Of a DNA stretch of 47,204 nucleotides, positions 6,045 through 41,850 are shown in pieces. The DNA is from Planctomycetales bacterium (GTDB taxonomy: Bacteria > 4484-113). Made by a program: the position numbers and the translations under genes. Under the pieces are notes generated by a model. That model saw only the letters and a list, made by a program, of their open reading frames with translations, did not search any database and was not told where the DNA came from. Numbering within the stretch: position 1 is the first letter of the stretch; each line of letters opens with the position of its first letter. The stretch is from positions 1 to 47,204 of the forward strand of contig JAUWGS010000017.1 of NCBI GenBank assembly GCA_030606285.1, given 5' to 3'.

Positions 6045-6128
6045 GTCCGGAAGAAGGTGCGGCACAAGTCCGCAACCTACAGGAATCCTCCGGGTAGCGC
6101 CGGCTATCCAGCTGGCGGCTTTTAAAAC

Positions 6129-6260: not shown

Positions 6261-9149
6261 ATGACAATCCGCAGCATCCTTCGGGTGATTGCACTCACAA
6301 TCGTCGTCTGCGCGTTCGCACTCGTGCTCAACACGTGCGGTGGTGGACGCAAAGGATCGGTAGTCCAGGGCTTAAGCCCTGGCTCTTCGCAAGACAGCAA
6401 GACCAGCCCTGAAGGGCTGGACTACCCGATTGAAGTTTCGCTGGACGAAGCGCTGGCCGAACTCGCCGCGTATCCAACGCCGGATGGCGTTGATGCAGAG
6501 CTATTCGCGCAACTCAAGGCCGCGCTCGGGGAGGCGCTTCACGAACAATGGGGAGCGTCGACCTCTAGGTCGGGCGTTTCGTGCGAATTCGTTGGGTCGC
6601 CCGGTCTGGAGACCGACAGTCCCCGGGGAATGGGCAAATTCGTCTCCACGCCGCCGACCGGCGAAGCCAACCGGGTGGACGACCTCGCAATCATCGACAA
6701 TGGCGGAGGCACCTACACGCTTTCGTGGCATTATAAAAACCTCGGCGACTACGACCAGAACGGCACCGTCGGCATCTCCGACATCACGCCGCTTGCGATG
6801 CACTACGGCGAGACCTACGAGCCCACCGACGTAAACTGCCTCCTTGCTGTCATTGACGGCAGCGGGAATGGTACTGTCGACATCGCGGATATCACGCCGA
6901 TTGCGATGAATTATGCTGTGGATGTTGCATCCTACAGCGTACGTAGTTCCGCTCACGAATGGGGAGCCTATACGGAAATAGACGCGATAGGTTTCGAAGA
7001 GGCTACTGGCGGCGATGTCGGGAGGAAAATTCTTGAGCTGCCATTGGTTCCGGAACTCGGCACCTGGTATCGCGTAGTGCCGCAGGACGCCGCTTGGAAT
7101 GAGGGTGTCGTCAGCGAAGCCGTGCAGTACTTGGGAGAGATCCCTCCGGAGGTGATATATGTCTCACCATTGTCTGGGACTGTGGGCAGTGAAGCAACGT
7201 TCTCAGCCGTAGTGACCGGTGCTACTCCGATGACATACGCCTGGGATTTCGGTGGCGGGGCCGAGCCTAACACTAGCGATGAAGAGAGCCCAAGAGTCAC
7301 TCTCGGCATTGCTGGTGAATACAGCTGTTCGCTGAATGTGTTGAACGCTTATGGTGAGGACTTGTACGAGTTCGCACTGACGATAACATCTGAAACCACC
7401 TATGTCGTTTCAGGCACGGTGAGCAAAGCCGACGGTGGTAGCCTAAGCGGAGTCCTGGTTTCGCTTGATGGCGTGTCATCTGTGGCGACAGAACCCAGCG
7501 GCTACTTCGAGTTCACCGGAGTCATAGGTGGAGCCCACACACTTACGCCGAGCCTGGGGAACTGGACCTTCACTCCTCCCATCAGAGACGTGAACGTCGA
7601 ATATGCCAATGTCACAGGTCAAGACTTCACGGCCTACTCTCCCCCTGTTGCTGACTTGGTGGCAGATCCCGCGAGCGGGGAAGCACCGCTCCTAGTGGAC
7701 TTTGACGCGAGCGCAAGTCACGACCCAGATGGTGGTTCAATCGTGAAGTATGAATGGGACTGGGAAGGCGATGGTACATACGATTACGACTCGGGCACTG
7801 ATGCCACGGTGCAGCATACCTACGAAAGCGGAGGACTGTACACAGCAACGGTGCGTGTCACCGACAACGAAGCCGCTGCCGCAACTGCCACGACGAGCAC
7901 AATCGTTACCGTAACCGGGACTGCTTGGGTGCATACGTGGGGAGGGAATAGCGATGACCGAGCCAAAGGGGTCGTGTCTGATGACAGTGGGAATGTATAC
8001 GTGGCGGGATGGACTAGGAGCTTCGGCCTAGGGCCCGCATCGATTCTTCTCTTGAAGTATGACGCTGCCGGGAACATGCTATGGAGCAAGACATGGGGCG
8101 GGACAGGCGACGAAGTGGCAAAAGCGCTATTCTTAGACAGTGCAGGCAACTTGTACTTAGCGGGGGCCACTTCCAGTTTCGGGGCTGGCGACAGTGATGT
8201 CGTTCTCCTTAAGTACGATTCTAATGGGAACATCTTATGGCAGAGAACCTGGGGTGGTAGCGGATCTGAGGGTGCAGACGCACTCATCATCGATAGTCTG
8301 GATAACATCTACGTCGCAGGTATGACCAGGAGTTTTGGCACAGGCGAGCCGGATGTTGCCCTCCTGAAGTACGACTCAAACGGTAACCTGCTCTGGCAAA
8401 GAGTATGGGACAAGGGCGACATCGACTACGCCACATCACTAGCTGTTGATGACGATGGAAACCTGTACGTGTGTGGGAATACATACTCCTTCGGTGCAGG
8501 CGAGGGGGACGCTCTGGTTCTCAAGTATGACTCTTCAGGAAACCTAGTCTGGGATAGGACTTGGGGTGGCAGCGACAACGACTTCGCGTACGGAGCGGCT
8601 ATTGACGAGTCTGGTAATCTGCTTGTCACGGGAAACACACGGAACGTTGCAGAAGCAGCGATAGCTGCCTTCCTCCTGAAGTACAGCCCCGCTGGTGACC
8701 TGATATCGGAATTCACTTGTAGCGAAGGCTCCAACTACCAACCTGGAGCTATAACGGTTGATGACAGCGGAAGGGTCTATCTTGCCGGAGCGAGCGTTGA
8801 TGGCTCTAACGTCGATGTGCTTTTCCTGGAATACGCCCCGGCAGGGGGCCTGACTTTGGCCAAGACTTGGGGAAGAAATCTAGATTACGAAGTAGCCCAT
8901 TCGCTCTTTGTGGATGGAAACGGAACACTGTATTTGGCTGGGGAATCCCCCACAGCCAACGGGTATTGGCAAGAGGCAACTCCAAGCGTCTGGTCATTCT
9001 CCGGTTCAAGTATGGTTCCTGATGGAACCACTTTCTTTCCCTTCGGAACAGAGACTCAGCCCACAGGCGCTGAGAGTTCACCCCTGGGTATAGAAGACAC
9101 CGGTGGTGGTGGAAAGGACGTCTTCGTCATGAAGTACGTTCCGGAGTAG
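6261..9149 (+). CDS. Lipoprotein A: N-terminal dockerin-like pair, PKD domains, seven-bladed propeller
   Basis: This 962-residue surface-type protein begins with a lipoprotein signal (FALVLNTCGGG, Cys26). A 22-residue insert encoded by a palindromic repeat follows at 34-55. Two dockerin-like calcium-loop repeats lie at about 160-220 (DQNGTVGISDITPLAM and GNGTVDIADITPIAM). Then come an Ig/PKD-like domain at about 294-378, a carboxypeptidase-regulatory-like fold at 382-460, a PKD domain at 461-550, and seven copies of an SBBP-type propeller repeat (GNLYLAG...LLKYDSNGNILW) at 555-962. I chose the ATG at 6261 for its strong AGAAGGAGA site and because the signal peptide starts there. It is paralogous to 14063-15946 and 46625 onward. 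Its ligand is unknown; no cohesin partner is seen. Confidence 0.82.
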   Translation: MTIRSILRVIALTIVVCAFALVLNTCGGGRKGSVVQGLSPGSSQDSKTSPEGLDYPIEVSLDEALAELAAYPTPDGVDAELFAQLKAALGEALHEQWGASTSRSGVSCEFVGSPGLETDSPRGMGKFVSTPPTGEANRVDDLAIIDNGGGTYTLSWHYKNLGDYDQNGTVGISDITPLAMHYGETYEPTDVNCLLAVIDGSGNGTVDIADITPIAMNYAVDVASYSVRSSAHEWGAYTEIDAIGFEEATGGDVGRKILELPLVPELGTWYRVVPQDAAWNEGVVSEAVQYLGEIPPEVIYVSPLSGTVGSEATFSAVVTGATPMTYAWDFGGGAEPNTSDEESPRVTLGIAGEYSCSLNVLNAYGEDLYEFALTITSETTYVVSGTVSKADGGSLSGVLVSLDGVSSVATEPSGYFEFTGVIGGAHTLTPSLGNWTFTPPIRDVNVEYANVTGQDFTAYSPPVADLVADPASGEAPLLVDFDASASHDPDGGSIVKYEWDWEGDGTYDYDSGTDATVQHTYESGGLYTATVRVTDNEAAAATATTSTIVTVTGTAWVHTWGGNSDDRAKGVVSDDSGNVYVAGWTRSFGLGPASILLLKYDAAGNMLWSKTWGGTGDEVAKALFLDSAGNLYLAGATSSFGAGDSDVVLLKYDSNGNILWQRTWGGSGSEGADALIIDSLDNIYVAGMTRSFGTGEPDVALLKYDSNGNLLWQRVWDKGDIDYATSLAVDDDGNLYVCGNTYSFGAGEGDALVLKYDSSGNLVWDRTWGGSDNDFAYGAAIDESGNLLVTGNTRNVAEAAIAAFLLKYSPAGDLISEFTCSEGSNYQPGAITVDDSGRVYLAGASVDGSNVDVLFLEYAPAGGLTLAKTWGRNLDYEVAHSLFVDGNGTLYLAGESPTANGYWQEATPSVWSFSGSSMVPDGTTFFPFGTETQPTGAESSPLGIEDTGGGGKDVFVMKYVPE
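6360..6425. repeat. 66-bp two-hairpin element inserted in frame in lipoprotein A
   Basis: The unit opens GTAGTCCAG and closes with its inverse CTGGACTAC. Inside are the hairpins CCAGGGCTTAAGCCCTGG and CCAGCCCTGAAGGGCTGG. The plan matches the intergenic two-hairpin elements, with a different sequence. Its 66 bp are exactly 22 codons, so the reading frame is kept. It lies in the linker just after the lipobox. Confidence 0.75.
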
Positions 9150-41109: not shown

Positions 41110-41187
41110 GGGCACAGCATGCTGTGCCCGTTCTACAGCAGCCAGGGCGCAGCACGTTAGCCAATGACGCATCCTCGTTGTAGAATC
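41110..41187. repeat. 78-bp repeat B: REP palindrome plus RAYT promoter region
   Basis: The partner of repeat A at 40145-40222. It contains the perfect 20-bp palindrome GGGCACAGCATGCTGTGCCC (41110-41129) and TAGAAT (41181-41186) directly before the RAYT coding sequence. Confidence 0.7.
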
Positions 41188-41766
41188 GCCTATGTATCCA
41201 GCCGCATCCCAATTCCGGGCCTGCCCGACCGCCGGTCGGTACGGATGCGCACCTACGATTACGCCACCGCCGGTATCTACTTCGTGACCGTCTGCACCCA
41301 CGGCAAGAGGTGCGTCCTCGGGCGAGTGACTAATGACCGAGTCGTTTTATCCCGCATTGGCGCCATCGTGGACGAATGCTGGCGGGCGATACCGGAGCAC
41401 TTCGCGGGCGTGGAGCTGCATGAATTCGTGGTGATGCCAAACCACTTGCATGGGCTCATCATCCTGCCGGAAGCACCACGGGCACAGCATGCTGTGCCCC
41501 TACGGAACAAGGACGTCCTGGCTCCGGAGCGCAGCTTCGGCGCTATGCGGCCGGGCGAGCTGTCCGCCATCGTTCGGTCGTTCAAGTCCGCGTGCACCAA
41601 GCGGGTGAACCGGTTGCGGCGGACGTCCGGCCGGACACTGTGGCAGCGAGGTTACTATGAGCATGTCGTGCGAGACGCGGATGACCTAGAGCAGCTTCAG
41701 CGCTATATCATCGAGAATCCGTTGAGCTGGGTGCTGAACCGGGAGAATCCACTGCGCGGCAAGTAG
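41164..41766 (+). CDS. REP-associated tyrosine transposase (RAYT, Y1/IS200-like)
   Basis: This protein (200 residues from ATG 41164, or 173 from ATG 41245) is a single-stranded-DNA HUH transposase of the kind that spreads REP palindromes. It has the opening RRSVRMRTYDYATAGIYFVT, the HUH motif in VVMPNHLHGLI (about residue 98) and the catalytic tyrosine region in WQRGYYEHVVRDADD near 163, so the core is intact. The start is unclear: the -10 box at 41181-41186 is followed by an ATG at 41192 in the wrong frame, which suggests a small frameshift or start at 41245. A copy of its presumed REP target lies in frame at 41480-41503, with others just before and after the gene. Confidence 0.85.
   Translation: MTHPRCRIAYVSSRIPIPGLPDRRSVRMRTYDYATAGIYFVTVCTHGKRCVLGRVTNDRVVLSRIGAIVDECWRAIPEHFAGVELHEFVVMPNHLHGLIILPEAPRAQHAVPLRNKDVLAPERSFGAMRPGELSAIVRSFKSACTKRVNRLRRTSGRTLWQRGYYEHVVRDADDLEQLQRYIIENPLSWVLNRENPLRGK
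41480..41503. repeat. REP palindrome inside the RAYT coding sequence
   Basis: GGGCACAGCATGCTGTGCCC followed by CTAC is read in frame as RAQHAVPLR between the HUH motif and the tyrosine motif. It is identical to the intergenic copies at 41110 and 41827. Confidence 0.8.
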
Positions 41767-41826: not shown

Positions 41827-41850
41827 GGGCACAGCATGCTGTGCCCCTAC
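41827..41850. repeat. REP palindrome downstream of RAYT
   Basis: GGGCACAGCATGCTGTGCCC followed by CTAC, 60 bp after the RAYT stop. The gene is thus flanked by, and contains, the same palindrome. Confidence 0.75.

Follow-up and report, generated by a model that had tools for sequence, protein, structure and literature searches.

How does a short palindromic repeat come to be read as part of a surface lipoprotein, and what do the residues that it encodes do there? The question is raised by a gene on the forward strand of a 47,204-nucleotide stretch of DNA (the window, meaning the whole stretch that was analysed). This open reading frame (6261..9149) encodes a dockerin-like lipoprotein with PKD and SBBP beta-propeller matches (Pfam PKD_4 and SBBP), which belongs to a family of about 50 paralogs. 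Its lipobox (VLNT-C in the sequence) has the cysteine codon at 6336..6338 on the forward strand, and this cysteine is kept in all aligned paralogs. The sequence-only reading had placed a two-hairpin repeat in frame behind the lipobox, and this placement was borne out. The element begins eight codons past the cysteine codon, and position 6360 falls on a codon boundary, 99 nt (33 codons) past the ATG at 6261. The segment is very probably a mobile, REPIN-type GTAG palindrome that lies in frame in a disordered lipoprotein linker, has spread among paralogs, and serves as a passive spacer.

The inverted ends originally described are indeed present, with GTAGTCCAG at 6360-6368 and CTGGACTAC at 6417-6425. 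From GTAG to CTAC, positions 6360-6425 encode VVQGLSPGSSQDSKTSPEGLDY, in which serine, proline and glycine make up 10 of 22 residues, in agreement with the description of a Ser/Pro/Gly-rich linker. The length of 22 codons holds for this segment, but the repeat proper is slightly longer, running from 6358 or 6359 to 6426 as (C)GGTAGT...ACTACC. Aligned with its other copies, it is a GTAG...CTAC two-hairpin, REPIN-like repeat of 69 nt (6358..6426, forward strand). When folded as a single strand, an outer stem of 6 bp (left arm GGTAGT, 6359..6364; right arm ACTACC, 6421..6426) encloses hairpin 1, an inverted repeat with 7 bp (CCAGGGC-TTAA-GCCCTGG, 6365..6382), a variable centre (6384..6402), and hairpin 2, also with 7 bp (CCAGCCC-TGAA-GGGCTGG, 6403..6420). 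The two internal hairpins of the earlier description are the strong ones, but the centre forms a third, weak hairpin. The folding energy is -37.5 kcal/mol (z = -4.9), and none of 200 shuffled sequences folds equally well. Differences between copies are concentrated in the hairpin loops and, above all, in the centre, and hardly occur in the stems, whether a copy is coding or not. Copies are 66 or 69 bp long, and the extra units inside some of them, at 18, 21 or 36 bp, are likewise divisible by three; those of 18 or 36 bp are nested in frame in or beside the loop of hairpin 2. No known RNA family matched above the Rfam thresholds, and a weak Acido-Lenti-1 match was dismissed.

The arrangement is not due to chance, because a covariance model finds 26 full copies in the 2.3-Mb genome that contains the window (the window copy scores 85 bits); the model was built from 16 element copies, and a DNA search had already given many copies in this genome. 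Seventeen copies are located in genes, while nine lie outside long genes. The genic copies are confined to two paralogous families, with 11 in dockerin-like lipoproteins and six in a second family. Two partial copies, at the ends of contig C29, are also in lipoproteins, at the same position as in the window gene. The element had been said to follow the plan of intergenic elements, which understates its presence in genes: intergenic copies exist, but the majority are in genes of only two families. A mostly intergenic distribution was considered and dropped, as several apparently intergenic copies turned out to be the other strand of second-family genes. Two of the non-coding copies seem to adjoin tRNA-like sequence (L208, ~1420-1600, C11:48298; L022, ~1525-1592, C26:68725).

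In the second family, six copies occur in five genes (VVQPFRAGSSDDKTRAEALDY), with the order of the hairpins reversed relative to the lipoprotein copies. The core of these proteins (LHAQLADLLQIYL...CSAKDAISCAKTLTAMMSDVQSGK) is under purifying selection, with a pN/pS of 0.18 over 10 sequences (L117 1426-2916 and L118-L134). No Pfam name applies to the family, and the only PHROGs match, a weak one, is to a family whose function is unknown. The long linkers of these proteins resemble mosaics of many translated interspersed repeats.

Beyond this genome, the covariance model detected one decayed copy in a congener (G001) and four weak matches with the GTAG-hairpin-hairpin-CTAC plan in G005, which belongs to the same order but to a different family; the remaining genomes searched with it contained nothing convincing. 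Based on this distribution, the element family is lineage-specific.

Within the lipoproteins, the site of the element is shared between the window gene and about a dozen sister genes (11 full and two partial copies). Scoring of nine complete paralogs places the start of the element 20-26 nt after the start of the cysteine codon and its end 20-26 nt before a conserved EALAEL block, and the shifts are always of whole codons. With the element at an identical position in about 12 sister genes, the window gene need not have had an insertion of its own.

Comparison of filled and empty sites gives the clearest view of how this site has changed. In the genome of the window, two tandem lipoproteins at C17:162-166 kb each carry the element. 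The syntenic place on contig C21 of G001, with the same neighbours, has a single lipoprotein that lacks both the element and the second insert. The linker outside the element also differs there, with 15 residues in the first genome and 25 in G001, which indicates that the insertion was not clean or that the linker has changed since. Neither a target-site duplication nor an empty site clean to the single nucleotide was found for the element, and the event at this locus is as much a replacement as an insertion. An ortholog without the 22 residues is available for this syntenic locus; for the window gene itself the comparison is with paralogs (L044, L037 and L036). Its nearest paralogs, whether judged by upstream DNA or by protein core, lack the element. 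Both genes flanking the window lipoprotein were found in G001, with a contig gap between them. Contigs C68 and C118 of G001 break exactly where the lipoprotein is expected, and carriers in the first genome stand at the ends of contigs C7, C16 and C29, as if repeats or paralogs had broken the assembly.

Two further pairs of genes are informative. Orthologs on contig C26 of the first genome and on contig C49 of G001 both have the element in the same place, which dates at least one landing to before the split from G001. The G001 copy is half-decayed but still in frame, and a paired change from G-C to A-T preserves its hairpin 1. In near-identical paralogs on C11 and C16, the loop of hairpin 2 has identical flanks but holds an extra 36 bp, in frame, in only one of the two; for a nested repeat, this pair gives a clean comparison of a filled with an empty site. 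Taken together, the other copies and the lipoprotein relatives without the 22 residues support the original suggestion of a repeat turned into protein, and these residues were not found conserved where the repeat is absent.

A history in which one insertion was passed down within a single clade of paralogs was rejected. In a tree of protein cores, from which both linkers were left out, an AU test excluded the carriers as one clade (p = 7e-6), and the well-supported (starred) branches force at least five element changes, although the cores are short and resolution is low. As carriers do not form a clade, the cassette has either moved between paralogs or been inserted repeatedly; the near-identical spacing in all carriers would favour exchange or duplication. 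L042 and L061, for example, have 89% of their upstream DNA in common and the same insert in the second linker (slot 2), while the insert behind the lipobox (slot 1) differs and their cores group with other paralogs. More generally, slot-1 and slot-2 inserts combine freely among paralogs. These linker and core combinations come from an assembly of 36 contigs, in which some carriers are at contig ends (C7, C16 and C29), and could include chimeras.

The element is not the only palindrome in these linkers. The window gene has a second in-frame palindromic insert of 75 bp, or 25 codons (GGGGA...TCCCC, 6550..6624, forward strand). Its three full copies all lie in lipoproteins and are 99-100% identical. 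Both ends of this insert also flank a Y1_Tnp gene at G000:C29:250702-251402, and it is therefore probably a miniature derivative (MITE) of this Y1 transposon. The terminal repeat of the transposon (L206) overlaps the 3' end of its gene, where it is read as PGLETDSPR, a peptide of the second insert in the window lipoprotein. An Rfam match to mir-341 over this insert (6545-6627; 30.7 bits against a gathering threshold of 90) was dismissed as chance similarity between GC-rich hairpins. Slot 1 of other paralogs can be filled by the palindrome GGGTAGCGCCGCCTATCCAGGCGG, read as HRVAPPIQA, or by GAGCGGCGGTCTCCAGGCCGCCGAT, read as SGGLQAAD. With no more than one mismatch, the first 20 bases of GGGTAGCGCCGCCTATCCAGGCGG are found at 14 genomic places. 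One of these is intergenic and just upstream of the window gene (6092..6111, forward strand), where GGGTAGCGCCG... represents the GTAG palindrome that fills sister-gene linkers as HRVAPPIQ. The second linker, which follows the helical core, is short (AKGVSK) in many paralogs and contains one of several repeat-like inserts in others; apart from the insert of the window gene, these were followed within the lipoproteins.

Two further Y1 genes are flanked by palindromes of their own kind. One is in the window (41164-41766), encodes a RAYT-like Y1_Tnp protein, and has GGGCACAGCATGCTGTGCCC on both sides, at 41110-41129 and 41827-41846. The same palindrome is also found in frame inside this gene (41480-41499), read as RAQHAVP. 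A fourth Y1 gene has no obvious palindrome in the flanks read. Across the four Y1_Tnp loci, no copy of the GTAG element was found within the stretches read, in an assembly that is 91% complete. A RAYT adjoining the element was sought as its partner and rejected, as the Y1 genes found are accompanied by other palindromes or by none that was recognised.

The frame in which the gene reads the element, GTA GTC CAG (V-V-Q), is open in the copies tested, whereas nearly all other frames contain stops, as expected from GTAG itself, which yields TAG in one of them. The V-V-Q frame has a stop in three of eight non-coding copies and a shift in one, and neither in any genic copy, a contrast that is partly circular because genic copies were recognised by an open frame as well as by gene-family membership. 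Non-coding copies mostly have the same lengths, so a multiple of three is partly a property of the element rather than an outcome of selection. Among five intact lipoprotein copies, which show few differences, pN within the element is 0.075 and pS 0.078, compared with a pN/pS of 0.46 in the adjoining core. In a structure model that is poor as a whole, the linker with the element appears as coil (pLDDT ~28-30). The near-equality of pN and pS, the concentration of differences in loops and centre, and the low-confidence coil all fit a passive spacer rather than a selected protein sequence. As judged from sequence, the evidence supports a mobile palindrome that would be read as a harmless stretch of protein.

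Two other accounts would give the segment a role of its own. The 22 residues might be native, selected lipoprotein sequence, such as a spacer or sorting motif, with the remaining copies being by-products of duplication and decay. The 11 full and two partial copies at an identical position would suit this account, as would the decayed copy that one gene still retains, in frame, in its G001 ortholog. However, the same element is present in an unrelated family, with its hairpins in reverse order, and in non-coding DNA; most paralogs and the syntenic G001 gene do without it; replacement and silent differences are equally frequent; and it is the pairing of the stems that is kept, not the loops. The copies outside the lipoprotein family have already largely refuted native sequence as an explanation, and it is now extremely improbable. 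Alternatively, the palindrome may be maintained for a role in nucleic acid, as an mRNA hairpin behind the signal-peptide codons that slows translation or sets mRNA stability. Its stable fold (z ~ -4.9), its invariant stems and the paired change that keeps hairpin 1 in G001 would suit such a role. Yet stems are equally constant in non-coding copies, their constancy is explained by recent spread, many paralogs lack the element, and in several genes hairpin 2 is broken up by nested inserts, which leaves a maintained mRNA hairpin very improbable.

A different emphasis is placed on recombination. Through linker repeats at fixed positions, paralogs could exchange signal-peptide, linker and domain modules by recombination, and the proteins would so be diversified. 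The failure of carrier genes to form a clade, the free combination of inserts in the two slots, and the mixed affinities of L042 and L061 all point this way. The case nevertheless depends on a low-resolution tree from short cores and on an assembly that may itself create mosaics, and such shuffling sites are an unlikely explanation. In a broader and still rather doubtful version, the two disordered linkers of this family of about 50 members would be shared landing and exchange sites, where several kinds of mobile palindrome settle in frame, nest, and move between paralogs, with the proteins diversifying by shuffling linkers made of repeats.

The preferred account remains that of a mobile palindrome read as a passive spacer. 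The element would be one copy of a palindrome that is small and mobile, namely a REPIN-type doublet of REPs tagged with GTAG, and it would occupy the unstructured linker that joins the lipid-anchoring cysteine of a surface lipoprotein to its first folded part. The mover was probably a Y1 (HUH) transposase of the RAYT/IS200 kind, acting via single-stranded hairpin DNA, although no such gene adjoins the element. Insertion would be tolerated because the linker is disordered, the length of 66 or 69 bp is a multiple of three, and the V-V-Q frame is open. The element would have landed early in one lipoprotein, for at least one gene before the divergence from G001, and the element-bearing linker would later have passed among paralogs by duplication and recombination, or by re-insertion at the same site. 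The 22 residues would then act only as a spacer.

Protein-coding palindromes occur in Rickettsia, Wolbachia, and some REP-rich genomes, usually as one family distributed over many genes. The translation of palindromes within proteins is already known; here they are unusually concentrated in two families, and many kinds share the same linkers. In this uncultured lineage, two linkers of a single surface-protein family have repeatedly been occupied by several palindrome families, and the ends of one insert connect it with a Y1 transposase gene. As paralogs and a sister species offer sites that are filled, empty or nested, the system can be used to measure how palindromes spread through coding sequence and what they cost the protein.

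The element can be compared with three known systems. REPINs are inverted doublets of GTAG-tagged REPs around a variable, pairing spacer (PMC3116915, PMC3733652), and intragenic REPs encoding 20-30 amino acids are on record (PMC3733652). The element likewise consists of two inverted units, each a GTAG tag with a hairpin, around a variable centre that itself pairs weakly, and its copies are dispersed. In contrast to the usual extragenic location of REPINs, 17 of its 26 copies are inside genes of two families, no cognate RAYT stands beside any copy in this 91% complete assembly, and the copy number is low. It is classed as a REPIN only with reserve, owing to its location and the lack of an adjoining RAYT. 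In the REPtron/TIRtron plan, Y1 (IS200/IS605-like) transposase genes are flanked by their own palindromes (PMC3733652, PMC8266576). For the GTAG element, this assembly contains no comparable partner gene; the second insert of the window gene, which belongs to a different family, shares its ends with those flanking the Y1_Tnp gene at C29:250702-251402. Rickettsia palindromic elements (RPEs; Ogata et al. 2000, cited in PMC2229807) occur in frame inside protein genes and also between genes, measure 105-146 bp, and were found in many different, often conserved genes. At 66-69 bp, the element is set apart from RPEs by its length and is not classed with them, and it occupies linkers of two paralogous families, which it shares with other palindromes. 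As a phenomenon it is nonetheless RPE-like: it occurs both outside long genes (nine copies) and in frame (17 copies), its translation is predicted from an open frame, and relatives without the insert exist, as an ortholog at the syntenic G001 locus and as paralogs of the window gene.
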